A DNA stretch of 33,283 nt from Bacteroidota bacterium (GTDB taxonomy: Bacteria > Bacteroidota > Bacteroidia > M30B66): positions 1 to 33,283 of the forward strand of contig CANHIS010000032.1 of assembly GCA_947460255.1 (NCBI GenBank). The letters run 5' to 3'. Position 1 is the stretch's first letter. Each line of letters starts with the position of its first letter. Of the stretch, positions 8,481 through 28,900 are shown piece after piece. The notes beneath the pieces are model-generated. The model was not told the origin of the DNA. It did no database searches and was given only the letters and a program-made list of their open reading frames with translations. The position numbers were made by a program, and so were the translations under genes.

Positions 8481-8852
8481 ATGACTTCAATCCGAGGACT
8501 GCTTTTAGCGGTCGTCATGCTATGCTTTTGCCTTCAACTTGACGCTCAAGAGGAAAGAGATTCGAACAAGAAACACTTCGAAATCGTGGGCTCATTGTCG
8601 CCAGATGAAAAGTTGAAAGTTCAGGATGCGCTCGATCATTATGGTTTGTTGGATGCCTATCGTTTGGATGCTCAACGAAGAACGGTTGTTCTCGATGGAC
8701 TAAAGGCTTCCGTGGTTTTGTACAGTAACCAAGAATTGCAAAAACCGATAGGAAATCAAAAGCGCGCTGCGTTGAAGTCTGCTCCACAAGGAACATCGAT
8801 GCGCTTTGCCATCACCCCGAAGGGGAAATTAAAAGTGATTGCTGAACAATGA
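8481..8852 (+). CDS. Small secreted protein, first gene of the adhesin locus (123 aa)
   Basis: I do not recognise a family. The signal peptide is residues 1 to about 22 (hydrophobic LLLAVVMLCFCLQLD-A-Q). The mature part is about 100 aa, basic toward the C-terminus, with a central helix-like DEKLKVQDALDHYGLLDAYRL and a beta-rich RRTVVLDGLKASVVLY. The stop overlaps the next start (ATGA at 8849-8852), so it is translationally coupled to the giant CUB/Ig protein. That suggests a matching stoichiometric or chaperone-like role, but this is inference from position only. Confidence 0.8.
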   Translation: MTSIRGLLLAVVMLCFCLQLDAQEERDSNKKHFEIVGSLSPDEKLKVQDALDHYGLLDAYRLDAQRRTVVLDGLKASVVLYSNQELQKPIGNQKRAALKSAPQGTSMRFAITPKGKLKVIAEQ

Positions 8853-11800
8853 GAAAACTGTTGCACATATTGCTGTTGTTTATCATCTGGATTCCAGGTG
8901 TGGCGCAGGTTTACAATATGGGTAACTTCGGCACCATTACAGATGCTTGCGGAGGATTGTTTTACGATAGTCAGGGTCCTGGAACAAATTACCAGAACAA
9001 TGAATTTTCTACCATCACATTTTGCGCTCCGGCAGGACAAGCAATCACATTCACATTCACCGACTTTAGACTAGAAGCGGGATTCGATTTTTTGGATGTT
9101 TATAATGGGCCATCCACCGCTTCGCCACTTTTAGGTTCCTACACGGGAAATCTTGGCCCTGGAGTAATTTCTTCAACCATTGGCGGCTGTTTAACCTTCC
9201 AGTTTTTCTCAGATGGCATCACACGGCGCAGAGGCTGGGAAGCCGCAATTTCCTGCGGGGATCTTCCTCCACCGACAAACAATGGAGATACTTGTCCGAA
9301 TGCAACACCCTTTTGCACAGGAACAACTTATACATTTAACAACAACATCAATGTACCCAGCTTGGGCACTATTAATTGTTTGAATTCAACACCAAATCCT
9401 GTTTGGTATTATTTTGAAATTGAAAACCCAGGCGATTTAACCATCGATATTGCCCAGTTTGATGTTTTCGATTTCCCGATTGATGTTGACTTTTTGCTTT
9501 GGGGCCCGTTTTCATCTTTACCAGATGGATGCACGCAAATTCAAAACAGTACGGCGCCAGTTGCAGATTGCAGCTTCTCGGGATCTGCATTTGAACAGGC
9601 GAATGCTGTTGGCACACTCGCAGGCGAAGTGTACATTTTACTACTCACCAATTTCGACAACGAATTAGGGTACATTACCTTCAACAGTGCATCAAGCTCA
9701 ACAGCTACAACAAATTGCGACATTCTTTGCAGCATTACAGCACTTTCGGCAACACCATCTACCTGCGATCCAACCACAAATTCCTACGAAGTTTCAGGAG
9801 AACTTACCGTTACCAATCCTCCTGAAAGCGGCATCCTCACCTTTACGAGCTCTTGCGGCGGAACCACCACGCTAAGTGCACCCTTTCCAAGTCAAATTAG
9901 TTATACCATTTCTGGAATCAATGCAACAGGAGGAAACTGCAATGTTGTTGCGACGTTTTCAGCCGACCCATCTTGTACTATTTCTGAGAGTTACACTGCA
10001 CCAGCGGGATGTGCAAGTGTGTCGTTGAATTGTCCAGATTATTCAAATACATCAAGTAGCCCAACAATTGCTTGTTCAAACCAAACCTATTATTTAGATG
10101 TTGCAAACACGGCTTGTTCAGGGCAGATTTTTCTAACTGTTGAAGGCAATTATGGGTCACTTTATCAAGATGAAATTTCTTGGACACTCACCAGTATCTC
10201 AACGGGAAACATTATCGCTAGTGGAGATTTCTTTTCTAATGGTCAGTCCTTCACTTTGAACTTACCTGCTATCGACCCAATCGTTCAAGGTACAATCTTT
10301 CGCTTAGATGCATTCGATATTCTTGCTGATGGATTCGATGGAACGGGTGGATTCATTCAAGTAAAACAAGGTGGTACTATTATCGGCGGCCCATTAAATT
10401 CTGATTTTTTCAGTAACATCTACACCATTTTCGGTGCGAGTATCAGCATTTCTCCAGCCACAATCACCGTTACCACCCCTGCTGGAAATGTGGTACAAAC
10501 GGTTCAAAACTGCAACGATTTCCGGGTGCCGATCAGTATTGAAAATCCAAATTTCTGCAATACGATCAATGCGACATTACCTTGGACAGTTACCTGCAAC
10601 AGCACCGGCACAACACTGGCTTCAGGAAGCAACACATTAACTGTTTATCCGACCCTTCCTAGTTCTTCAAACGATGTGGTGAGCATCCTATACAACACCT
10701 CAACCTGCGATTGGGAAGTTACAGGCAACAACGATTGCGATGCAGGAGATATCGGCACCATTTTTACGATTAGTCCGAATCCTACAACCCTAGCAAGCAC
10801 AGCCTGCACGGGCGGAAACCAAACATTCGATTTAACCTATCTCGGCCTTAGTGGTGGGCCAAATTGTTGCTCAACTGGAGGCGCTCTCATTCCGATTCAA
10901 ATCAACAATGCTTATCCGAATGGAAGTTACGTAATTGCGAATTCGCCTTTTGGTGGGATCAACAATGCGGCCTACCTCAACATTCCTCCCAATACAGTTG
11001 GCGGAAATGCCACTTCCTTGCAATTAGACCTTAACATGACAGGTTTCTGCATGGATCCAGCTGGACCAAATTTAGGAGCTGATTTATCCTATTGGGTTAC
11101 AGTTTTAGTGGATGGACAAATTGTATCCGACATCAATACCATTGATCCAGGTCCTTCAAACTATTCGCAAACAATAAATCTAGCTGGAATACCAGGAGGT
11201 TTCAATTCGTCGATGGACATTGAAGTATATGTTTACCCAAATATTTTTGCAAGTCCGAACGGTTTAATCTTCCAAACATTCAATCCATCAGCCTCTTGCG
11301 CATCCTTAGGCAATGGGATTTGGACTGCTTCAACCATCACAGCAAATCTAGCAGCAACCTTCGAAGAGTTTGAGCCAACTCCGGCCACTTGCCTCTACCC
11401 TACCAATGCTGCATTTTCTTGTTGCTCACCTACAACGGTTAGCAACGCATCATCCACTATTTGTTCTGGTGGAAGTATTTCTGCTGTTACAACCTGGCAA
11501 AATGCTGTAGCAGCAGCCAATCCAACCTGCGTGGTATATTCGAGTGTTTTGCCAGTTGCCGGAACTACCGCTCCAAACAATTCGCTCCCTTCGGGGATAA
11601 ATAACACCGCAGCTCCGATAATTCAAACCGTTAGCGCATACGCTTACTGCGATGCCGACGGTAGCAGCACAATCAATACGGGCGATACTTACACGCTGAT
11701 CAGCACCTACAATCTTACGGTAAATCCAACTGCTACAGCAGGCTCAAATGGAAGCACTACGATTTGCAACACTGGAAGTCCAGTAAATCTGTTTAGCCTA

Positions 11801-13372
11801 CTGGCCGGAACGCCATCCATAACGGGCACTTGGAGTGGTCCATCAGCCCTTTCGGGCGGACAATTAGGCACATTCAATCCGGCAAGCAATACTGCTGGAA
11901 TTTACACTTACACTGTGGCGGGCACTTCACCTTGTCCGAATGCAGCTGCTTCGGTAACAGTAACACTCACTGCAGCCCCAACAGCTGCGATTTCCTATTC
12001 AGGTTCACCTTTCTGCACAAACCAAGCAGGCACACAAGCCGTGAGTATTTCAGGAACTACTGGAGGCACTTTTACAAGCGCTCCTTCAGGCTTGTCGATC
12101 AATACTTTAACCGGCGCGATCACTGCATCGAGCAGCACGCCAGGCACTTACACAGTTACCTACACAATTGCTGCAGCTGGTGGATGCGCAGCATTTTCCA
12201 CAACAACCACGGTGGTGATAACAAGTGCTCCAAGCGCGCCGAACCTCACACCTGCCCTTCCATGCGCAGGCGAAGTGATCAACTTTACAGCATCAGGTGG
12301 TTCTTGGTATAGCTTTACTGTGAATGGCGTGGAATTGCAAGCGCCTTCAGCAGATAACACCTACACTTCGGCCGTTTTAGCCGCTGGCGATCAAGTTTGT
12401 GTGCAGTCGTATCCAACGCCCCCATTTGTTTTCAACGGACAAATTTCTGAGCCCGAATGGGGAGCGCCATTGGCGACTTCTACAGGCGGACCAACAAGCA
12501 GTTTTGGCACATTGAACAACCTCGATGCTTTGTATTTGAAAAACATGTCGGGCAATTTGTACGGCGCATTGGCGGGACAAACCGAGAACGGAAGCAACAA
12601 CCGAATTCTGTTGTTTATCGATTGCATTCCTAATGGATTCAACTCACTTTCAGGATGGATAAACCGAAGTGAGGCTCCATATTTCTCGACAGAAAACCTG
12701 AGCAGCAACATCAGTTTCGATCCAGGTTTTAACCCAGACTATATTTTGGCGATGAACCAAGCATTTGGATCAGGCTACTTCGATTTGTACAACATGCAAA
12801 CGAACGTCAATTTGTTTTTGGGTCAATCGGGAACTTCAGCGCCATTGGGCTACCAAAACAATGGTGGTTCAGGAAATTTCACGCAAGGGTTTGAATTTGC
12901 GATTCCGCTAGACATTTTAGGCAATCCAACTGGTTCGATTCAGGTATTTGCAATGATGGTAAATGATCCGGGAGAGTTCATTCCAACCTTTGTGAGTAAC
13001 CAATTTCTCACACCTGCAGGCCCATTTGAGAATAGCTATGGAAATGCTGCTATTTCGTTTGGCAGCGCAACGCCCAACCCGGTTTCATACGCATTGAGTG
13101 CCGACTGCAGCAGCGAAACCTGCGTTACAGTTACAACACCTGTTACGCCGACGTTCAGTGTAATACCTCCATTTTGTGAGGGTTCAATAGCGCCAAGTTT
13201 GCCTGCTACTTCTATAAATCTAATTTCGGGAACTTGGAACCCATCCGTAATCAGCAATACTGCAGGGAACACCTACAATTTCACTCCAAATGCTGGACAA
13301 TGTGCTGATCCGACTTCAACAACCACAACAGTTTTGCCTAAACCTTCCACAACATTGATTTATCATGATTAA
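8849..13372 (+). CDS. Giant secreted CUB / Ig-like / CBM9-like adhesin ending in I-Y-H-D (1507 aa)
   Basis: This is a predicted cell-surface or secreted modular protein. The signal peptide ends near residue 20 (V-A-Q). A CUB-like domain follows (about 22-137; LDVYNGPS and the closing GWEAAISCG are typical). Next is a cysteine-rich beta region whose WYYFEIENPGDLTIDI is typical of Bacteroidota surface proteins. Ig/PKD-like modules follow (about 960-1130, including GGTFTSAPSGLSINTLTG). A DOMON/CBM9-like module begins at NGQISEPEWG near residue 1195. The last module (IAPSLPATSINLISGTWNPS) resembles one in the 833-aa protein. It has no type A or B T9SS sorting domain and stops abruptly at S-T-T-L-I-Y-H-D. 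The first gene is coupled to it by ATGA; a 126-nt gap follows. Ligand unknown. Confidence 0.88.
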   Translation: MRKLLHILLLFIIWIPGVAQVYNMGNFGTITDACGGLFYDSQGPGTNYQNNEFSTITFCAPAGQAITFTFTDFRLEAGFDFLDVYNGPSTASPLLGSYTGNLGPGVISSTIGGCLTFQFFSDGITRRRGWEAAISCGDLPPPTNNGDTCPNATPFCTGTTYTFNNNINVPSLGTINCLNSTPNPVWYYFEIENPGDLTIDIAQFDVFDFPIDVDFLLWGPFSSLPDGCTQIQNSTAPVADCSFSGSAFEQANAVGTLAGEVYILLLTNFDNELGYITFNSASSSTATTNCDILCSITALSATPSTCDPTTNSYEVSGELTVTNPPESGILTFTSSCGGTTTLSAPFPSQISYTISGINATGGNCNVVATFSADPSCTISESYTAPAGCASVSLNCPDYSNTSSSPTIACSNQTYYLDVANTACSGQIFLTVEGNYGSLYQDEISWTLTSISTGNIIASGDFFSNGQSFTLNLPAIDPIVQGTIFRLDAFDILADGFDGTGGFIQVKQGGTIIGGPLNSDFFSNIYTIFGASISISPATITVTTPAGNVVQTVQNCNDFRVPISIENPNFCNTINATLPWTVTCNSTGTTLASGSNTLTVYPTLPSSSNDVVSILYNTSTCDWEVTGNNDCDAGDIGTIFTISPNPTTLASTACTGGNQTFDLTYLGLSGGPNCCSTGGALIPIQINNAYPNGSYVIANSPFGGINNAAYLNIPPNTVGGNATSLQLDLNMTGFCMDPAGPNLGADLSYWVTVLVDGQIVSDINTIDPGPSNYSQTINLAGIPGGFNSSMDIEVYVYPNIFASPNGLIFQTFNPSASCASLGNGIWTASTITANLAATFEEFEPTPATCLYPTNAAFSCCSPTTVSNASSTICSGGSISAVTTWQNAVAAANPTCVVYSSVLPVAGTTAPNNSLPSGINNTAAPIIQTVSAYAYCDADGSSTINTGDTYTLISTYNLTVNPTATAGSNGSTTICNTGSPVNLFSLLAGTPSITGTWSGPSALSGGQLGTFNPASNTAGIYTYTVAGTSPCPNAAASVTVTLTAAPTAAISYSGSPFCTNQAGTQAVSISGTTGGTFTSAPSGLSINTLTGAITASSSTPGTYTVTYTIAAAGGCAAFSTTTTVVITSAPSAPNLTPALPCAGEVINFTASGGSWYSFTVNGVELQAPSADNTYTSAVLAAGDQVCVQSYPTPPFVFNGQISEPEWGAPLATSTGGPTSSFGTLNNLDALYLKNMSGNLYGALAGQTENGSNNRILLFIDCIPNGFNSLSGWINRSEAPYFSTENLSSNISFDPGFNPDYILAMNQAFGSGYFDLYNMQTNVNLFLGQSGTSAPLGYQNNGGSGNFTQGFEFAIPLDILGNPTGSIQVFAMMVNDPGEFIPTFVSNQFLTPAGPFENSYGNAAISFGSATPNPVSYALSADCSSETCVTVTTPVTPTFSVIPPFCEGSIAPSLPATSINLISGTWNPSVISNTAGNTYNFTPNAGQCADPTSTTTTVLPKPSTTLIYHD
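13346..13372 (+). other. C-terminal tail STTLIYHD-stop (copy 1)
   Basis: These are the last eight codons plus stop of the 1507-aa protein. The final four residues I-Y-H-D are encoded att tat cat gat. They match the ends of the next two proteins at the peptide level but use different codons, which argues for conservation of the peptide rather than a recent DNA copy. Confidence 0.75.
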
Positions 13373-13498
13373 CAAATACTTCACATACAAATTACCTCAT
13401 CATGGATTTGAACATGATTCAGCTGCTTTGAATTCTCTAATGCATCAAGTTAACAATACTTTAGATTCATTTGAGAACAAGATTTTTGCGGTTTGGAA

Positions 13499-14482
13499 AT
13501 GTTGGCCAGCGCAATGGATCTTAAGTGGAAATCGGAAAGTAAGAAACAGTTCAACCTTAAACTGTTGTTGCTTATGATTTTGCTTACGTCATATTATTTG
13601 GGTCGGAGTCAAACGGTGATCGCCAACCAAGGTTTTGAAGGACTTCCAACCGACAATTGGGGCTATATTCCCCCAACACAAAATGCCACTACTCCTCAAG
13701 TTTTAGTAGGTGCAGCAAATTATGGTGCAGGCTATTCATCTTCTGGAAGCCGAAGCATGCGCATTGGAGGCGGCTCAACCAATTGTGGAAATTTAACAAG
13801 CCCCAATTGTATAAATGGACAAACTTCTGGCGGAAACTGTAACGACAACCCAAATGGGAGAATACTTCAATTTCAACCTGTAGAGATTTCCTGTTACAAC
13901 AACGTTCGCGTTTCGGTTGCCTACAGAACAAATACATTTTGCAGCGGAGGACCTGGTTTTGACAGTGGTGATCAAATATTTTTCGAGGTGAGTGAGAATG
14001 GTGGTCCGTTTTCTACAGCAGCAACGATTAATGGCTTTGACGATTGCATCTGGAATTACGCAACAACCAATGTTAACTGTACTGGCCCGGCCATTCAAAA
14101 TCCATTTGTTTACAATGTTCCTCCAGGGCGAAATACTTTGGCCTTTAGGATTAGAATCAATGTAAATCGATCCGATGAAGTGCTTTACATCGACGACGTT
14201 AAAATCACTGGAAGCTTCAGTGGTGATTTCAATTATCCGCCAATTGCTTGCTCCGCCGAACTGCTTGTAGCTCCAGCCATCGATATCAATTTGGTGAGTG
14301 GAGGAACATTTTCAGCTTCCCCGCTCGGCTTATCTCTGAATGTATCGAGTGGAAACATCAATCCTTCAACCTCCACTCCAGGAAACTACACTGTGAACTA
14401 CATCAAATTCACCGAAATCTGCGCTTCATCAACAGTTACGGTAGGAAACGTCATATCAACAACACCCATTTACCACGATTAA
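13499..14482 (+). CDS. Secreted jelly-roll-like protein ending in I-Y-H-D (~327 aa)
   Basis: The start is uncertain: ATG at 13499 or 13514, both upstream of a clear signal peptide (FNLKLLLLMILLTSYYLGRS-Q); a TTG at 13493 is less likely. The mature N-terminal ~200 aa look like a beta-sandwich (galactose-binding or MAM-like): it opens ANQGFEGLPTDNW, has SRSMRIGG and DQIFFEVSENGGPF, and closes LYIDDVKITG, a typical final strand of such domains in T9SS cargo. A short Ig-like module follows (GGTFSASPLGLSLNVSSGNI), which resembles one in the 1507-aa protein. There is no recognised sorting domain; the protein ends S-T-T-P-I-Y-H-D. It lies 126 nt after the previous gene and 11 nt before the next. Confidence 0.85.
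   Translation: MLASAMDLKWKSESKKQFNLKLLLLMILLTSYYLGRSQTVIANQGFEGLPTDNWGYIPPTQNATTPQVLVGAANYGAGYSSSGSRSMRIGGGSTNCGNLTSPNCINGQTSGGNCNDNPNGRILQFQPVEISCYNNVRVSVAYRTNTFCSGGPGFDSGDQIFFEVSENGGPFSTAATINGFDDCIWNYATTNVNCTGPAIQNPFVYNVPPGRNTLAFRIRINVNRSDEVLYIDDVKITGSFSGDFNYPPIACSAELLVAPAIDINLVSGGTFSASPLGLSLNVSSGNINPSTSTPGNYTVNYIKFTEICASSTVTVGNVISTTPIYHD
14456..14482 (+). other. C-terminal tail STTPIYHD-stop (copy 2)
   Basis: These are the last eight codons plus stop of the jelly-roll protein, with I-Y-H-D encoded att tac cac gat. The peptide equals copy 1 except for P in place of L, although the upstream domain is unrelated to the one before copy 1. Confidence 0.75.
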
Positions 14483-14493
14483 ACAACCCGCTT

Positions 14494-16995
14494 ATGAGAC
14501 ACTTAAAACTTTTACTCATCTTAATCTTGGGCTTTGTCTGGAGCCAGGATACAATTGCGCAGGACAATTCGTCGCCCACGCAGGTAATTTGTGAAGGCAC
14601 TATTCGTCCGTATCGGGTTGATAAGGATGAAAATGGCGGCGCTGGAACAACAAATGCGCAGTACAGTTGGTCGATAACTTCTGGGACTTTCCTTGGAACG
14701 ATCACCACAAACCAAGGACCAGTTGTGGCATGGTCGCCCACGGGAAGCACCAACAGAATCATCATCGACTGGGGCACTTCCGCACCTGGAAACTATGTTC
14801 TCACAGTAATTGAGACCTTAAATGGTTGTGATGGCGATCCGATCGACCTTGACATTCAGCTCACGCCAAAAGTCGATCCTACCTTCGGTACATTTGGGCC
14901 TTATTGCTTGAATGCAGTTCCTCCAGCGCTTCCATTGATTTCGAACAACCTTATCGACGGAACTTGGACACCTTCATCAATTAACACCAGCGCACCTGGA
15001 ACAACCACTTACACCTTCACGCCAGCGGCGGATGAATGTGCGAAAGTCTACACCATGGATGTAATCGTAACACCTTTGCCGGTTGTGCTCATTTCGGGCA
15101 CCAACGAGGTTTGTCCAGGTGGAAGCACAACGCTTACGGCAAGTGGAGCAACTACTTACGATTGGAGTCCAAGTTCAGGATTGTCGGCGACGGACATTAG
15201 CATTGTTGATGCAACACCAGCATCAACCACCACTTATACCGTTACAGGAACCGATGGAGACGGATGTACAGCATCCGATGATATCACAATCACTGTGAAT
15301 CCGTTGCCAACAATCAGCACGAGCGGAGATGTGGCGATTTGCGATGATGGATCTACCACGTTGCAAGCATTTGGTGCAGACAGTTATATTTGGAGCCCAG
15401 CAACAAATCTAACGGCCACTTCTGGACAAAGTGTAATTGCAGATCCAAACAGCACGATCACCTACACTGTTACTGGAACCGACAACAATGGTTGCCAAAA
15501 CACAGCAAATCTTGAAGTTACAGTAAATCCAACGCCAACCTTTACTACTCTAGGTTCTGCAACTTGCTCGGCCGATTTGTCAACTTATAGTTTAACTGTG
15601 AGTGTATCAGCTGGAACGGTAACCAGTACTGAAGGAACGGTTGCAAACACAAGTGGAAATAACTGGTCGATTTCATTGGTTCCAGCAGGAACCGATATTA
15701 CCTTAACTGTTACTTCAGGCACTTGCGACGAAACATCGTCGATCATCGCTCCTGTTTGTACCTGTCCTCCAATAGCAAATGCTATCAGTTTAGGTGATGA
15801 TGATTTCTGTACTGGCAGCACCATCCCAACTTTGGGCGTGCAAGCTGTTTCGGGAATTGCATTCGATTGGTATAGTGTTGCTTCAGGAGGAATCGCTTTG
15901 GCAACCGGCGTAAACACTTACACACCAGCTGCAGCTGGAGATTATTACGTTCAGGCACGTGATATCGCTACGGGCTGTTTAAGTTCAACGAGAACACAAA
16001 TCACCTTGATTGAAAATGGACTTCCAACTGTTGATGCAACACTCGACTTTGCGATTTGTGAAGGCGCTACAGCTTCACTTTCTGCTTCAGGTGCAGTAAG
16101 TTATGCTTGGGTTGGAACTGGATTGGTTTCGAATACTGGCTCTAATGTAACTGCCAACTTAGGTGATGGAGTATTTACATTCACCGTTACTGGAACTGAT
16201 GGAAATGGATGTACTGATACAGAAGATGTTCAGGTAACTGTTAATCCTGTTCCAACAATCACGGTTGTGAGTGCTCAAGTTTGTTCGGCTGATCTAGCAA
16301 CTTGGAGCATGGAAATTTCGGTTTCGGCAGGAATTCCAACAAGCTCAGCTGGAACAGTTGCAAATGCAGGCGGAAACAACTACACAATTGTTGGAGTTCC
16401 AGCAAGCACCGATATTACGATCTCGCTTACGGTAGCAGGATGCCCTATCACATCTGATGTTACTGCACCAGTTTGTAATTGCCCAACTGTGAATGTACCT
16501 GTAGGAACCGATGCAGCATATTGCGCAGGATTTACGCCTGTTCCAGCATTAACGGCAACGGTTGAGGCTGGCCAAACTTTAAATTGGTATAACGCTTCCA
16601 TTGGTGGCTTACCAATTGGCACAGGATCTCCATTCGTACCAGTAGGTCCGGGCACCTACTATGCCGAAGCATTCGACAACCTTACTGGTTGTGTGAGCTT
16701 ATCGCGTGATGCAGTTACCTTGACCGAAAACGCACTTCCAAATGTTACGGCTAGTGCGAATATCTCGATTTGTGAAGGCGAAAACACAGAGTTAACCGCT
16801 GGTGGAGCTACAACATTAACTTGGGACAATACTGGAAGTCTTTCTTCAGGTTCAGGCTCTCCGGTTACGGCAACACCAACAACTACAACTACTTACACCG
16901 TTACCGGAACAGATTCCATTGGTTGCCAGAACACTGCAACGGTTACTGTTACAGTGAATCCAAGGCCAAACACTTCTGCAATTTTCCACGACTAA
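14494..16995 (+). CDS. Secreted PKD/Ig-like repeat protein ending in I-F-H-D (833 aa)
   Basis: ATG 14494 is chosen because it begins the signal peptide (MRHLKLLLILILGFVWSQ...IAQ); the frame is open further upstream only because it overlaps the previous gene. Domains: a PKD-like N-terminal domain (about 28-127, Y-S-W...APGNYVLTVIETLNGCDG); a GTWTPSSINTSAPG module; C-x-G-x-x-x-x-L-x-A-x-G-A Ig-like repeats with closing TYTVTGTD-x-x-G-C; then two tandem copies of a ~239-aa three-part super-repeat (from 15565). The last repeat ends VNPRPNTSAIFHD with no T9SS sorting domain. The next gene shares its N-terminal domain and super-repeat but ends in a type B sorting domain, so the two are paralogues with different C-termini. 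Likely surface adhesin or filament subunit. Confidence 0.88.
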   Translation: MRHLKLLLILILGFVWSQDTIAQDNSSPTQVICEGTIRPYRVDKDENGGAGTTNAQYSWSITSGTFLGTITTNQGPVVAWSPTGSTNRIIIDWGTSAPGNYVLTVIETLNGCDGDPIDLDIQLTPKVDPTFGTFGPYCLNAVPPALPLISNNLIDGTWTPSSINTSAPGTTTYTFTPAADECAKVYTMDVIVTPLPVVLISGTNEVCPGGSTTLTASGATTYDWSPSSGLSATDISIVDATPASTTTYTVTGTDGDGCTASDDITITVNPLPTISTSGDVAICDDGSTTLQAFGADSYIWSPATNLTATSGQSVIADPNSTITYTVTGTDNNGCQNTANLEVTVNPTPTFTTLGSATCSADLSTYSLTVSVSAGTVTSTEGTVANTSGNNWSISLVPAGTDITLTVTSGTCDETSSIIAPVCTCPPIANAISLGDDDFCTGSTIPTLGVQAVSGIAFDWYSVASGGIALATGVNTYTPAAAGDYYVQARDIATGCLSSTRTQITLIENGLPTVDATLDFAICEGATASLSASGAVSYAWVGTGLVSNTGSNVTANLGDGVFTFTVTGTDGNGCTDTEDVQVTVNPVPTITVVSAQVCSADLATWSMEISVSAGIPTSSAGTVANAGGNNYTIVGVPASTDITISLTVAGCPITSDVTAPVCNCPTVNVPVGTDAAYCAGFTPVPALTATVEAGQTLNWYNASIGGLPIGTGSPFVPVGPGTYYAEAFDNLTGCVSLSRDAVTLTENALPNVTASANISICEGENTELTAGGATTLTWDNTGSLSSGSGSPVTATPTTTTTYTVTGTDSIGCQNTATVTVTVNPRPNTSAIFHD
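15565..16980 (+). repeat. Two tandem copies of a 3-module super-repeat (period 717 nt, ~239 aa)
   Basis: Copy 1 runs from 15565 to 16281 and copy 2 from 16282 to about 16980. Each has module A (begins CSADL[SA]T, contains GTVAN and VPA[GS]TDIT), module B (begins with a CPP or CPT cysteine; W-Y-x-x-x-x-G-G core; YY[VA][QE]A) and module C (ICEG-x-x-x-x-L-x-A-x-G-A...VTGTD-x-x-G-C). A third copy lies in the next gene from 17347. Divergence at the base level is clear, so this is not a recent duplication. Confidence 0.85.
16969..16995 (+). other. C-terminal tail NTSAIFHD-stop (copy 3)
   Basis: These are the last eight codons plus stop of the 833-aa protein, with I-F-H-D encoded att ttc cac gac. 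The tail follows directly after an Ig-like module and P-R-P linker, at the point where the neighbouring paralogue continues into further repeats and a sorting domain. Confidence 0.75.
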
Positions 16996-17010
16996 GCGAA
17001 CGAACGCACC

Positions 17011-19527
17011 ATGCTCTTGCATCTCAAGAAATATTTACTGTTGATGAGCCTCATCGGGGCTGTGCTGCCATTGGTAGCGCAAACCGATACGCTCTGTCAG
17101 GCCGATCCAGTGGGGAATTACCACGTGGTCGGGTTGACAAACAGTACCTATTTCTGGGATACGCAAGGTGATGGAACGATCCTCAATGGTCAAGGAAATG
17201 ATTCGGTGCAGATTAGTTGGGCGAACGGGCCGGGCAACTACCAACTTACGGTGTTGGAAACGAGCAGCTTCGGTTGCGCAGGTTTGCCAATGGTGTTGAA
17301 TATTGTGATTTTAGATCCTTCTGTTTCGTTAAATGGGCCGCCGGTGTGCTCCGCGGATTTATCGACCTATAGTTTTAGCGTGACGTTAAATGCCGTTTCA
17401 CTTGAAACATCTGCAGGAACCGCAAGCAACACTGGTGGAAATATTTGGTTGATTGATGGCGTGCCTTCGGGAACTGATGTTGAACTTACAGTTTCGACAG
17501 GAAGTTGCTCAGTTAACCTCACGGTAAACGCCCCGGATTGTAACTGTTTGCCGATTTCACCGCCAACTGCCGCAAGCGTTTCGTATTGTGCAGGCGAATT
17601 GGTTCCGAGCTTAACTGCCACACCACCAACGGGATTTGAAGTGGATTGGTTTACAGTACCCACTGGAGGAATTCCGCTGTTGAGTGGATCGAACAGCTAC
17701 TCACCAGGAACCTCAGGTACTTGGTGGATCGAATCGCGAGAACCTTCCACTGGATGCGTGAGTAGCCAACGGACGGAAGTAAGTGTGATTGAGCATGCGC
17801 TTCCAACCGTAATTGCTTCCCCGGGCAATGCAATTTGTTTAGGTGAATCGATTTTGCTCACTGCCAATGGCGCAGAAACATACGATTGGAGTCCGCCCGA
17901 AGGGCTTTCCGCGGTGAGCGGCAATGATGTAAACGCGAACCCAACTACAAGCACCACCTACACCGTGATTGGCACGGATGCAAACGGATGTTCGGCCAGC
18001 GCGACTGTTTCGGTGGATGTGAACGCGAATTACAACAATACAATAACTGCAAGTATTTGTGGAGGAAGTAATTACGTGCTACCTGATGGAAGTTCGGTAA
18101 ATGCCACTGGAAGCTATTCGGTGACCTTGAGCTCGATAACGGGCTGCGACTCGGTGATTACGACCAATTTAACCGTGTTCAATTTAATTGCAACGACCAT
18201 AAATTCAAGCATTTGCGAAGGCAGCATCTATACCTTACCTGATGGCAGTTTGGTAAGTGCAACAGGAAGCTATCCAGTAATCTTGAGCAGTTCAACCGGC
18301 TGTGATTCGATTGTGACAGTGAACTTAATTGTTGATCCAGCCATCAACATCACCTTGAGTGAAGATGTAGAAATTTGTCAGGGAACGAGCGCCAATCTTA
18401 CGGCATCGGGCGCAGAAACCTATTTGTGGATTCCGGGCATAGGGTTATCCGACAGCACTGGATCAACAGTTACGGCAAATCCTACGATAACAACGACCTA
18501 CCTCGTTTATGGCAACAGCGGTTTGTGCAGCGACATCGACACAGTAACAGTTACAGTTCTTCCGGTGCCACAACTGCAAATCGATCCTTCGGCAGCGGCA
18601 ATTTGTGTGGGCGATACACTTACACTTATGGCGTCGGGCGCTGATGTGTTGATTTGGAACGATACAAGTGGAGTGAGTTTGAGTTGCGACACCTGTGCTG
18701 CAGCGCTCGCCTATCCGCAGGAAAGCATAACCTTTAGCCTTACGGGAATCGAGGGGCAGTGTTCAGCAACAGCTAGCGTTATAGTGGATGTTTTACCAAA
18801 TGTTGTGGCAACCATTTCGGGCGATACGACACTCTGTTTGGGAGAAAGCGTGCAACTTACCGCATCAGGCGGATCGATATATACCTGGAGCACAGGAGAT
18901 TCGACAGCAGTGATTGATGTTTTCGCACAGAATAGCACCTTTATTACTGTGGAAGTGAGTAATGGTGTTTGTCGCGATTCTATAACCACGGCATTGCTAG
19001 TATATCCTACTCCATTGGTAAATGCAGGCGTTGATACCTTAATTTATTTCGGAACATCTGCACAGATATTGGCCAGCAGCAGCAGTTCAGACGGAACTTG
19101 GTTTCCTAGTACCAATTTAAGTTGTTCGGATTGTTTTGAACCGACAGCCAATCCTCCATCCACAACAACCTATTGCTTAACAGTAATGAATATTTATGGC
19201 TGTGCAGCAACAGATTGCATCGATATTACCGTGGATACTTTGTGTGCCGACTTGTTTATACCAAACGTTTTTGCACCTGATGATGCTGGACATACAGAGA
19301 ACAACTGTTTCAAACTTTACGGTTCAGATTGCATTGGAACGATGACCTTAACGGTTTACAATCGTTGGGGTGAAAAAGTATTTGTGTCTTCAAATCCAGA
19401 CGATTGTTGGGACGGGAATTTCAGGGGGCAGCCGCTCAACACCGGTGTTTATGTGTATTACCTAGAAGCTGAATTGATTACTGGAGAATCGCTCAGCAAA
19501 CAGGGCAACTTAACCTTAATGCGTTAG
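17011..19527 (+). CDS. T9SS type B (gliding-motility-associated C-terminal domain) cargo, PKD/Ig-like repeats (838 aa)
   Basis: This is a secreted surface protein exported by the type IX system. The signal peptide is residues 1-24 (LLLMSLIGAVLPLVA-Q). It has the same PKD-like N-terminal domain as the previous gene (WANGPGNYQLTVLETSSFGC), then one copy of the ~239-aa super-repeat (17347 to about 18025). Two 52-aa repeats with SIC-x-G and LPDG-S and GCDS-[VI]-[IV]-T motifs follow, then three to four C-x-G-x-x-x-x-L-x-A-S-G Ig-like units. The C-terminal CHU_C-like domain spans about 745-838: LFIPNVFAPDDAG...TLTVYNRWGEKVF...CWDGNFRGQPLNTGVYVYYLE. PorP/SprF begins 2 nt after the stop, the usual pairing for type B cargo. 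Confidence 0.93.
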   Translation: MLLHLKKYLLLMSLIGAVLPLVAQTDTLCQADPVGNYHVVGLTNSTYFWDTQGDGTILNGQGNDSVQISWANGPGNYQLTVLETSSFGCAGLPMVLNIVILDPSVSLNGPPVCSADLSTYSFSVTLNAVSLETSAGTASNTGGNIWLIDGVPSGTDVELTVSTGSCSVNLTVNAPDCNCLPISPPTAASVSYCAGELVPSLTATPPTGFEVDWFTVPTGGIPLLSGSNSYSPGTSGTWWIESREPSTGCVSSQRTEVSVIEHALPTVIASPGNAICLGESILLTANGAETYDWSPPEGLSAVSGNDVNANPTTSTTYTVIGTDANGCSASATVSVDVNANYNNTITASICGGSNYVLPDGSSVNATGSYSVTLSSITGCDSVITTNLTVFNLIATTINSSICEGSIYTLPDGSLVSATGSYPVILSSSTGCDSIVTVNLIVDPAINITLSEDVEICQGTSANLTASGAETYLWIPGIGLSDSTGSTVTANPTITTTYLVYGNSGLCSDIDTVTVTVLPVPQLQIDPSAAAICVGDTLTLMASGADVLIWNDTSGVSLSCDTCAAALAYPQESITFSLTGIEGQCSATASVIVDVLPNVVATISGDTTLCLGESVQLTASGGSIYTWSTGDSTAVIDVFAQNSTFITVEVSNGVCRDSITTALLVYPTPLVNAGVDTLIYFGTSAQILASSSSSDGTWFPSTNLSCSDCFEPTANPPSTTTYCLTVMNIYGCAATDCIDITVDTLCADLFIPNVFAPDDAGHTENNCFKLYGSDCIGTMTLTVYNRWGEKVFVSSNPDDCWDGNFRGQPLNTGVYVYYLEAELITGESLSKQGNLTLMR
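17347..18025 (+). repeat. Third copy of the A-B-C super-repeat
   Basis: This copy starts at CSADLSTYSF and runs through WFTVPTGG (module B) to ICLGESILLTANGAETYDW and VIGTDANGC (module C), in the same order as the two tandem copies in the upstream gene. It shows that the two neighbouring genes share blocks of several modules, not just single Ig folds. Confidence 0.8.
18037..18336 (+). repeat. Two 52-aa LPDGS / GCDS repeats
   Basis: Two consecutive units inside the type B cargo, 156 nt apart, each read T-I-x-x-SIC-x-G-x-x-Y-x-LPDGS-x-V-x-ATGSY-x-V-x-LSS-x-TGCDS. This repeat type is common in Bacteroidota gliding-associated surface proteins. Confidence 0.8.
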
Positions 19528-19529
19528 TT

Positions 19530-20564
19530 ATGAAGAGAATAATTACGCTTTCAATTTGGATGATCTTGGGCTTTGGAATAAAAGCGCAGGATGTGCATTT
19601 TTCGCAGTTCAACCAAGCACCATTGCTTCAAAATCCAGCAATGGCAGGAGCAACATCGCCACTTCAGGCAACGATTAATTATAGAAGTCAGTGGAAAAGT
19701 ATTACCGTTCCATTTAAAACTTCAATGGCCTCATTTCATATGCGTGTAATAAGGAATCGAAACCAGAAGAATTACTTTGGGATGGGCTTGAATTTTATTT
19801 ACGACCAGAGCGGCGACGGTCAATTGCTAACAACGATAGTGAATTACTCACTTGCTTTTCATGTGAAATTAAATCGGAATCATCATTTAGGGTTAGGATT
19901 GCAGGCTGGCTATGGACAAAGAAGAATTGATACGCAAGGCTTTCAATGGGGCAGTCAATATGAAGCTTTAGGATTTAACTCAAGTATTGCATCAGGCGAG
20001 AATTATGGCAGCGAGGCATTTTCCTATTTAGATATTTCGGGCGGGTTGGTTTGGACATACGACAACAACGCAGGAAAAATGAAAGTACAAGGCAATAACT
20101 ATTCGAAAGGAAGTGCTGGAATTTCTTTGTTTCACTTTAATCGTCCGAATTATTCGTTCAATGCAACGGGCGAAAAGTTGCTCATGAAATACGTGGTGCA
20201 CGGAAACTTTTTGCAAAGCTTTGGCGCTTCTAAAGTGGCTATAAATCCAGGTTTCTTTGCATACTTGCAAGGACCAAACAGGGAAATTTTGATGGGCAGT
20301 TTGGTTAGATACGATCTGTTAGCAGAATCGAAATATTCAAATAAATATGAAAACGTTGGGGCATCAATTGGGGCATATTATAGAATGGGTGATGCTATGA
20401 TAATAAGTTCGTTGATTGAATTAGGAAGTTGGAATTTCGGATTGAGTTACGATGCTAATTTGTCGACATTAAGACAGGCAAGTAACGGTAGAGGTGGATT
20501 TGAGATTTCTATTGGTTACAATGTCTCGGCTGCTCAATTTGGAAAATCGTTCAGGATGCGATAA
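19530..20564 (+). CDS. PorP/SprF family type IX secretion membrane protein
   Basis: Predicted outer-membrane beta-barrel partner of T9SS; family members attach or stabilise type B cargo such as SprB at the cell surface. The signal peptide is about residues 1-19 (ends I-K-A-Q). The diagnostic start of the mature protein DVHFSQFNQAPLLQNPAMAG and then YRSQWKSI are at about 20-55. Alternating aromatic and glycine strands run to a C-terminal beta signature ending G-K-S-F-R-M-R. The 344 aa are normal for the family. It starts 2 nt after the type B cargo stop and is the last gene of the locus; convergent with the methyltransferase gene, with a 48-nt gap and no clear terminator. Confidence 0.95.
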   Translation: MKRIITLSIWMILGFGIKAQDVHFSQFNQAPLLQNPAMAGATSPLQATINYRSQWKSITVPFKTSMASFHMRVIRNRNQKNYFGMGLNFIYDQSGDGQLLTTIVNYSLAFHVKLNRNHHLGLGLQAGYGQRRIDTQGFQWGSQYEALGFNSSIASGENYGSEAFSYLDISGGLVWTYDNNAGKMKVQGNNYSKGSAGISLFHFNRPNYSFNATGEKLLMKYVVHGNFLQSFGASKVAINPGFFAYLQGPNREILMGSLVRYDLLAESKYSNKYENVGASIGAYYRMGDAMIISSLIELGSWNFGLSYDANLSTLRQASNGRGGFEISIGYNVSAAQFGKSFRMR

Positions 20565-25573: not shown

Positions 25574-25941
25574 GCTTTTTTTTGGGCAATTTAATTTCCT
25601 TCAACTCCATAAAAATCAACTATAGACCAATAAAAACAAGTCTTTTCGTTCATCAAAATTGAATAATTTAAAATTCAATTTCCAATATTAAATTACCAAT
25701 ACACAACCAAATACTTATCTAAAAATCCCTAATCGTTCATTGTATTTGGTGCTGAATAAAAACAAAACGCCAGTAAAAGGACTAAATCATTATGCATCAC
25801 TATAAAATTAAGCATTCAAAATAATAGGATTAATTATCTTCGTTGGTCATAATTCACACTTGTTCATCCAATGCCAACGAATATCCATTTACAACACCCT
25901 TCCTTTGGATGTTGATGATATTTGATGGATCATATACAACC
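25574..25941. other. AT-rich intergenic region before the VCBS cargo
   Basis: A second T-run follows the terminator, then about 350 nt of AT-rich DNA with no recognised promoter consensus, RNA or gene. The frame is open from 25843 into the next gene, but that stretch has no signal-peptide character and is treated as upstream DNA. Confidence 0.5.
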
Positions 25942-28900
25942 ATGACCAACCGTTACTTTGCACTTACAGTGCTCCTTCTCAGCTTCATTTCCGCGGAAGC
26001 GCAAAACTTTACCAGCACTTTTCTCGCCTACAACAACTTGTACATGAACAAGACCGACCTCGACCAAGATGGCGATCTTGACATCATCACTGGCGGACTC
26101 AATTGCGTGTCGTGGGAAGAAAATAAAGGGAACAATGTTTTCGTGAACCATGTGATTTCTCAAAGTCAGCCCGAAGTGCAATGGGTGGTAGGTGCCGATC
26201 TCGATGGCGATGGATATCAAGATATTGTGACCGCTTCTCTGAGCAACAATGCGGTGTATTGGTTGAGAAACTTGGGAAATCAGACTTTCGCACAAACCAC
26301 TTTAGCCACTGCTACAGGCGGAACTTCATCGGTTGCAGTAGCCGATCTCGACAATGATGGCGACATGGACGTGGCTGGCACAGGATTCAATGGCGACCGC
26401 GTTTTCTGGCTGCGGAACAATGGAGCCGAAGTGTTCACCCAAATTGAATTGCTTGCCGCTTTCGACGGAGCATTGAACATCGAAACAGGCGACCTTGACG
26501 ATGATGGTGACGCCGATATTATGGCCGCTGCGCGTGAAGGTGGAAGAATCAACTGGTTCCGCAATAACGGCGGAGGTTCCTTTACGAGCAATACCATCAT
26601 AAACAACTTCGCCAACCCGCGTGAAGTAAAACTTCGCGACTACGACCAAGATGGCGACCTCGATGTGATCTATGTTGCTGAGGCTGGAAGCGGCTGGTTT
26701 AGCAATACAAACGGCAATTTTACCATCAATGCCTATACGACCAGTTCGAATGCATTCTCGGTGGATGTTGCAGATATAGATGGCGATGGATTGCTCGATT
26801 TTATTCGTGCTTTCCCACAAACTCCAAGTATTTCATGGTCGAGAAATACAGGAAACCAAGTGTTATCAGGCGGCGGAACCATCGACAATGGACTGACGAG
26901 CCCTTCGCTGGTCGTACCCGGCGACTTTAATGCCGACGGAAAAGTGGATGTGATGTGTGGAAGCGATTTCGACGTGCGCTTGGCCATCAACGCAACAGGA
27001 CAAGTGTTTTCAAGTGTCGTGTTAAACCGCTACGCCACCAACAACCACGGTGCTTGTCACGGAGATTTCGACAACGATGGCGACATCGATTTGATGGAAA
27101 CGGCCTTCACATTTATGTACTGGTACCGAAATGAAGGAAATGGCGACTTCACTCCTATCCGACTTACCGACAACGGATTTCAGTTCATCAACAACAATTA
27201 TGGAATCAACATCGAAACCGTTGATATGGATGGAGATGGCGACGATGATGCGGTGTACAACGAGAACGACAATAACAAAGTGAGTTGGATTGAAAATCGC
27301 GGGAACGGATTGTTTTCCTACCGTTTTGCATTTAGCATTGAAGGGCCTTATTGCATTGATCCTGTTGACTTTGATAATGATGGAGATATAGATGTTGTGT
27401 GCGGAAGCACTGCCAACGATGCGGTGTATTGGTTCGAAAATAACGGAAGTCAGACTTTCACTCAGCGCTTCGTGAATGGCGAATACTTCGATCCGTTTTC
27501 CATCTTGGCGGAAGACATCGACAATGATGGCGATATGGACATCTTTACAGCACAAGGAAATCCTACCAACAAACTGATTTTACACAGAAACTCAGGAAAC
27601 AATTCCACCTTCACGGCAAGTCAAATTGATGCGAGCGCACCAAATATTTCCTCCATCGACTTGAAAGATGTGGATGGAGATGGAGACCTTGATTTACTTA
27701 GCGCCACGGGCGGAAACGAAGACCGCATCAGCTGGTACCGAAATTCGGGTGGGTCATTTCCCACTTTTACAGAATTTACCGTGAGCACTGGCGTGGATGG
27801 CGCAACTTACGTGTTTGGTGGCGATTACGATGGAGACGGCGATATGGATGTCGTGTCGGCATCTCAAACCGATAAAACCATCAGCTTATTTAAAAACGAT
27901 GGAAGTCAGTCCTTTACAAGAATCATTTTAGCTGAAGATATCGACGGCGCCGACTTCGTAGAATCGGGCGACTTGGATGGAGATGGATTAGAGGAAATTT
28001 ATGCCACTGGATCTACACATGGCATTGTGCAGGTTTTCAAAAACACACCTTATACTCCTCCACCGCCGGTTACTTTGCAACCATGTGCAGATTTGTTCAT
28101 CTCGGAAGTGGTAGAAGGAAGTTCTTGGAACAAGGGCATCGAAATCTACAATCCAACCCAAAACGACATAGAACTTTCGCAGTATCGCATCCAGATTTAT
28201 GCGAATGGATCAACCCAGCCAACCCAAACTTTAGCACCTAACGGAACCGTTGTTGCAGGCGATGTGTATGCCTTTGTGCACATTTTAGCCGATCTAGATT
28301 TCTGGTTCGAAGGTGATCTCGATGGGCAATACAATTTTAATGGCAATGATGCCATCACGCTCACGAAAAACGGCGATATCATTGATATTTTCGGGGTGAT
28401 TGGACAAGATCCCGGAGTCAACGGATGGCTGGGAACCAATGGTGCACAAACAACAGATAGAACAATCGTTCGAAAGGCATCCATCACCAAAGGGAACAAC
28501 ATCAACGGACCAACATTCGATGCTTCCACAGAGTGGGAAGTGTATCCAATTGATGCCTACCAATATTTTGGAAATCATACGGGAATCTGCGCTACAGCTT
28601 GCGTTCCGACGGTTGCGATAAGTACGACCAACCTCAATATCTGTGCAGGCGCAAGTGTGACATTTACCGCGACAATCACCAACGGTGGCGACACTCCGGT
28701 GTACCAATGGAAGAAAAACGGTAACAATGTCGGCACCAACAGTGCATCCTTCACCGCTTCCAATTTGGTGGATAACGATGTGATTACCTGCACCTTGGTA
28801 AGCAATGCCACTTGTGCCATCCCCGGAATATTCACTTCGAATCAATTGGTGATGAATGTATCATCGGCGGTTACGCCAACCATCAGCATTTCAACACCAA

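Follow-up and report, generated by a model that had tools for sequence, protein, structure and literature searches.

Why should three consecutive secreted proteins of a Bacteroidota genome end, directly before the stop codon, in what is essentially the same eight-residue peptide? The question arises from a stretch of 33,283 nucleotides (the window), contig CANHIS010000032.1 of assembly GCA_947460255.1, which is part of a genome of 4.13 Mb. An earlier note, made from these letters, had drawn attention to the shared tail and had considered that it might be an export or assembly signal, a sortase-like end, a strand docking into a neighboring cargo protein of the type IX secretion system (T9SS) or into PorP or, more plainly, the first strand of a lost immunoglobulin-like (Ig) domain.

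The tails and their genes

The three tails, STTLIYHD, STTPIYHD and NTSAIFHD, at ORF ends 13372, 14482 and 16995, each lie immediately 5′ of TAA and are encoded by differing codons, which confirms the shared ending. In Pfam and NCBIfam the three proteins are unmatched for any T9SS C-terminal sorting domain (CTD), be it TIGR04183, TIGR04131/CHU_C or type C, and in this too the earlier note was right: they are not CTD-bearing T9SS substrates. Its placing of them upstream of a type B cargo gene and of a PorP/SprF gene also held (Table 1). The start of the gene initially taken to encode ~327 aa is probably ATG 13514, giving 322 aa, and that of the 833-aa gene is probably ATG 14494. By eye, the signal peptides of the operon are without a lipobox, and none of its proteins matches a fimbrial family in Pfam or NCBIfam.

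Table 1. Features of the gene run in the window
Feature	Position	Strand	Evidence
Small secreted protein, 123 aa, opens gene run	8481..8852	+	ORF; no Pfam/NCBIfam match
Tip-like protein 1, 1507 aa: signal peptide, CUB, Ig-like repeats, tail, no N-dom	8849..13372	+	
Tail 1, STTLIYHD	13346..13369	+	
Tip-like protein 2, 322 aa: signal peptide, tail, no N-dom, no family match	13514..14482	+	
Tail 2, STTPIYHD	14456..14479	+	
Link protein, 833 aa: signal peptide, N-dom, Ig_7 repeats, tail	14494..16995	+	
N-dom of link protein, proposed acceptor of tails 1 and 2	14569..14871	+	N-dom profile E 2.9e-20, 74 bits
Tail 3, NTSAIFHD	16969..16992	+	
Base protein, 838 aa: signal peptide, N-dom, Ig repeats, T9SS type B CTD, no tail	17011..19527	+	
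N-dom of base protein, proposed acceptor of tail 3	17077..17316	+	N-dom profile E 1.3e-26, 94.6 bits; AlphaFold2 model
T9SS type B CTD (CHU_C) of base protein	19255..19515	+	CHU_C E 2.2e-14, TIGR04131 E 8.5e-9
PorP/SprF-family outer membrane protein	19530..20564	+	PF11751 E 2.9e-39, TIGR03519 E 1.3e-54

Some other features of the window deserve mention in their own right. The stop of the small gene that opens the run overlaps the start of the first tip gene by 4 bases; the small gene has an orthologue at the same position in genome G003, and similar-sized small genes are present in G002 and G007. Tip protein 2, with a Cys/Gly-rich N-terminal half that resembles a jelly-roll lectin-type domain, was found in G003 and not seen in G002, G006 and G007. 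Further along (25843-31455) a 1870-aa protein with FG-GAP-like VDLDGDGD repeats and Ig repeats has an end that by eye resembles a type A T9SS CTD; it is a second, unrelated large surface protein.

A strictly C-terminal peptide

The consensus before the stop is (xP)x-T-[TS]-x-I-[YFW]-H-[DN], with I, H and T invariant or nearly so across Bacteroidota orders, and a final residue that is mostly D or N, though Q, R, L and H also occur. How specific is so short a string? In the window's own genome I-[YF]-H-D-stop has 7 matches at the DNA level versus 3 for a reversed-pattern control, and when the matches on contigs C27, C53 and C109 are set in context and rejected as out of frame, the three window tails are left as real in-frame gene ends; the match on C88 ends in TGG, not a stop. 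The longer pattern T[TS]xI[YF]H[DN]-stop gave 12 matches within the order, mostly clustered as pairs or triples, in 6 of 10 genomes, the control giving 0. A GTDB-wide DNA scan for P-x-T-[TS]-x-I-[YF]-H-[DN]-TAA returned 50 stretches. On reading, 36 of them proved to terminate long Ig-repeat ORFs, without exception in Bacteroidota (Flavobacteriales, Bacteroidales, Prolixibacteraceae, Lentimicrobium, Salibacter and others). The remaining 14, short ORFs scattered across several phyla, are attributable to chance, and short ORFs that end in the motif but belong to other phyla, or have 5-120 residues and lack Ig repeats, were rejected on that ground.

Position within the protein is strict. Every long-ORF match in the fetched loci sits at the ORF end, including variants that had not been searched for, IWHN and TSGIYHN. 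The earlier note had proposed comparing the motif at protein ends with the motif inside: among 24 genomes, some of them entered twice, a stop comes next in 41 matches and a non-T sense codon in 7, and the 7 are at the level of the reversed control (8). Read in context, none of the 7 is in a recognizable Ig-repeat frame. Carriers are few: of 395 genomes sampled evenly across the class, 8 have the tail in real genes, 6 of them from the window's own family, and the system is therefore judged widespread but rare. Within a genome the tail genes are confined to one locus, second copies being rare. These features support the view that the tail is a conserved and functional C-terminal peptide.

The domain that follows the tail

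What accompanies the tail is to be found in the next gene. The gene 3′ of a tail gene nearly always opens, 4-12 residues past its signal peptide, with a domain (N-dom) that resembles PKD_6 and has the consensus C-x-G-x4-Y-x-V...GSTY-x-W...W...G-x-Y-x-L-x-V-x-E-T...GC-x-G. The usual operon order is tip (tail, no N-dom), link (N-dom and tail) and base (N-dom and CTD, no tail), an anatomy that runs donor-only, both, acceptor-only in gene order, sometimes with PorP/SprF next. The tail occurs at the C-terminus alone, this gene order is conserved and N-dom goes with the tail: 72 of 82 tail ORFs have an N-dom no more than 1.3 kb downstream and 69 of 74 N-doms have a tail upstream, those left unpaired being mainly chance ORFs, contig ends or cases of inserted genes. 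Counting one locus per system, a tail gene lies directly upstream of 60 of 64 N-dom genes versus 5 of 23 tail genes without N-dom (Fisher p about 1e-10, uncorrected for kinship), and such pair statistics rest on related genomes found largely through the tail itself.

Searching in the other direction is informative. With a profile of N-dom run against 18 genomes, a gap separates N-doms, which score above about 62 bits, from ordinary Ig repeats, which reach no more than 58, and nearly all the N-doms so detected fall in the tail locus. Strong matches elsewhere come to three loci, each with a tail gene directly upstream. In one (G408:C200, locus L153) the N-dom base gene is preceded by genes ending TTSEISVGP and NTSEISHP, in another (G006:C15, locus L155) a gene ending TPIIQHRN precedes an N-dom gene whose product has a type A CTD, and in the third (G402:C25) the upstream gene ends TTSSIYHN. 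The tails of two of the three are divergent; N-dom therefore predicts an upstream tail gene even where the letters of the tail have diverged. The exceptions are loci L154 and L026, in which the N-dom gene is the operon's first and no tail gene precedes it. Conversely tip protein 2 has no N-dom although the gene before its own, both in the window and in G003, is a tail gene, and two tips would therefore share one acceptor. In an even sample of 296 genomes of the phylum, N-doms above 65 bits were present only in the window's genome, and matches of 56-64 bits were discounted as internal or pre-CTD PKD domains, not N-terminal ones.

L153 is a second, divergent system within one genome and so a candidate orthogonal tail/N-dom pair. 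The tails of L155 have the form TP-x-IQH[RK][ND], and there an additional tail gene sits 3′ of the base gene.

Could the genes be joined by stop codon read-through? This was rejected, as only some pairs are in frame and the downstream genes have their own signal peptides. Nor does the tail look like the recognition end of a protease or ligase, whether sortase-like or an isopeptide tag acting through the terminal D or N. The prevalence of D or N at the last position would suit such a role, but Q, R, L or H can stand there instead, no Lys is conserved in the N-dom alignment, and neither Pfam and NCBIfam nor the neighboring genes provide such an enzyme at the locus. Moreover the motif comprises the last residues of the protein, with no transmembrane segment or charged tail after it, which speaks against the sortase-like end that had been suggested and makes any reading of this kind very improbable.

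A first strand on another polypeptide?

Internal N-dom-like domains of giant proteins are preceded in cis by ...VTINPLPEPSISGPVSVC..., and these internal relatives have PxPx-I-S-G ahead of the Cys, corresponding to G-strand, PxP and tail, with a median PxP-to-Cys distance of 12 in the internal repeats. At the C-terminus of a tail protein stands ...VTVNPRPNTSAIFHD, and (A)QTDTLC opens the mature protein that comes next. Taken together, the cis strand before the internal domains and these two ends give the tail the look of N-dom's first strand (strand A), carried on another polypeptide. The plain alternative offered at the outset thus came close: the tail does resemble the first strand of a next Ig domain, but that domain is not lost, its remainder appearing to open the protein encoded by the next gene.

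The correspondence of the tail to G-strand, linker and strand A of an Ig array is also what would be seen if a long Ig-array gene had been broken at a domain boundary, leaving a remnant without function. A remnant would decay, however, and the near-invariance of I, H and T across orders is not decay; the downstream genes each have a signal peptide of their own, and the same break point recurs in many operons. We give a functionless remnant very little credence.

Do tails differ with the gene that they precede? TT is present in 12 of 26 tails before link genes versus 3 of 25 before base genes, F in 5 of 26 versus 13 of 25, and a last residue other than D or N in 8 of 26 versus 1 of 25 (p 0.013-0.024, unadjusted). 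Such differences would fit separate acceptors, and shared ancestry could also cause them.

Since tail 3 and the base gene share a frame, one read-through chain could be modelled with AlphaFold2, from DNA 16939 to 17331 with TAA read as Gly, which comprises tail 3, the signal peptide and the N-dom of the base protein; the alignment was shallow (ten further natural read-throughs and 17 N-doms). The pLDDT is 85/81 for the tail blocks, 55/61 for the linker and 93-97 for N-dom, and F16-H17 are placed in a strand. In a control with the last Ig domain and the same tail, and no N-dom, the final five residues are at 64 and form no strand. Docking of the tail at N-dom is thus predicted with moderate support, within one tethered chain and short of the exact contact. 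By Foldseek the read-through model falls among PKD/Ig folds, and matches to N-dom among PDB sequences are to Ig-repeat proteins only, e.g. GhpA. The suggestion that the tail might dock as a strand into the type B cargo is favored by the N-dom pairing, by the cis relatives and by this model.

Base proteins and the type IX system

Of ten base proteins scanned, eight have a T9SS CTD (type B in seven and type A in one) and two have FISUMP. Two Bacteroidales loci (L055:2240-3400 and L076:6337-7806) have an N-dom base protein that ends in FISUMP (Fib_succ_major) in place of a T9SS CTD, a hint that FISUMP might serve for attachment to the surface. For type B cargo it is the cognate PorP/SprF that brings about secretion and retains the secreted protein (PMC9143113, PMC12618676). 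The base protein of the window has the C-terminal CHU_C/TIGR04131 domain and the adjoining PorP/SprF expected of such cargo, and this PorP/SprF is presumed to be its shuttle and anchor. SprA, the only T9SS component searched for, was found in the window's genome (E 1e-168). A PorP/SprF gene adjoins the system in the window, in its relatives G003, G006 and G007, and in Salibacter, G403, G407 and L048, as well as the second of the two systems in G408, and is not adjacent in several other loci. The linkage to T9SS loci in relatives that the earlier note had asked about accordingly holds in most for a T9SS-type base gene, but only in part for PorP/SprF.

Might the tail itself be a short signal for type IX secretion or for assembly at the surface, recognized by translocon, shuttle or PorP with no involvement of N-dom? 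The tail proteins have a signal peptide, are without a CTD, lie near a T9SS base gene and need some export route. However, genomes hold 2-14 PorP/SprF genes and yet their tails are confined to N-dom loci, which also counts against the more general export signal first envisaged; the tail type varies with the N-dom gene that follows, N-doms still follow tails that have diverged, and many loci have no adjacent PorP, which speaks equally against docking to PorP itself. Known T9SS CTDs, moreover, each make up an entire domain, about 70-100 residues long (PMC10202324). A secretion signal is on balance an unlikely explanation.

A proposed surface chain

We consider it likely that the tail is a C-terminal docking strand which joins tip, link and base into a surface chain held by T9SS. 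Each protein of the operon would reach the periplasm through its own signal peptide. Its last ~10 residues, after the final Ig domain, would pair with the N-dom encoded by the following gene and complete it with the strand A that N-dom has in cis inside longer Ig arrays. Split Ig domains of this sort would connect a tip, which has only the tail, through at least one link protein (N-dom and tail) to the base (N-dom and T9SS CTD, sometimes FISUMP). The base would be secreted and held on the surface by T9SS, here probably with the adjoining PorP/SprF, and tip and link would most simply cross the outer membrane together with it. Like strand-A replacement, chain formation, surface location and co-export of the members without a CTD, an adhesive role is something that we infer.

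The same genetics would be expected if N-dom bound the tail as a periplasmic holding or chaperone step, with no part in the final surface structure, gene-order evidence being silent on where binding takes place. N-dom belongs, however, to a large secreted protein and not to a separate periplasmic chaperone, and a passing interaction of this kind seems to us distinctly improbable.

With the docking strand as the preferred reading, how might proteins without a CTD cross the outer membrane? It is possible, though we would not quite wager on it, that they do so through the type IX translocon, pre-assembled with the base protein and coupled to it by the tail/N-dom joint. If true, one CTD would export a whole multi-protein adhesin. 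We found nothing in the open-access literature matching CTD-less T9SS partners, piggyback export or T9SS strand complementation.

The interpretation in the earlier note is, overall, partly supported. The tail/N-dom system is real and conserved and, as far as the open-access literature shows, undescribed. It offers a function for secreted Bacteroidota proteins that have no known type IX signal, and it allows an eight-residue tail to predict protein partners. It also bears on the general question of how surface proteins without a CTD exit the cell and stay attached, one that is testable in cultured Salibacter halophilus, whose genome has the same operon (L071, G012:C7) with a PorP gene beside it. 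The tail/N-dom pair could, in addition, serve as a small natural peptide-domain coupling.

Comparison with known systems

Sortase substrates differ in having a hydrophobic segment and a positive tail, neither of which follows the motif here. PKD_6 (PF19408) is nearer, N-dom being a relative of it with E values of 4.3e-9 to 0.00026 in some members; against the family cut-off of 25 bits one of five N-doms scores above (37), and those of the window give 21.7 and no match. Unlike PKD_6, N-dom comes directly after the signal peptide, is set apart from ordinary repeats by its own profile and a gap in score, and is proposed to be without a strand A of its own. The Ig/PKD repeats of GhpA, the grappling hook protein of Aureispira (PDB 9flp and others), likewise match the N-dom profile. 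GhpA is, in contrast to the tail system, a giant surface filament made from a single chain of 5898 residues. We know of no split domain or tail in it.

The pairs SprB-SprF and PG1035-PorP resemble the window's arrangement in that the base protein has a CHU_C/TIGR04131 CTD and an adjoining PorP/SprF, and secretion and anchoring at the surface require pairs of this type (PMC9143113, PMC12618676). The difference is that here the base would be tied to two or three extra secreted proteins without a CTD; no description of such partners of type B cargo was found in open-access papers.

In chaperone-usher pili and the type V pili of Bacteroidales (FimA/Mfa1) a neighbor's strand completes an Ig-like fold, and there are tip, shaft and anchor (PMC4789730). 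The tail system would be like them in that a strand from the neighbor is proposed, from sequence and model, to complete an incomplete Ig-like fold in a chain with tip and anchor. It is unlike them in having as subunits modular Ig/PKD-repeat proteins with no fimbrillin domain and with ends of the signal peptide I type, in a locus without usher or chaperone gene, and in having a base that carries a T9SS CTD. As proposed, the tail system resembles donor-strand complementation but stands outside any known pilus family.
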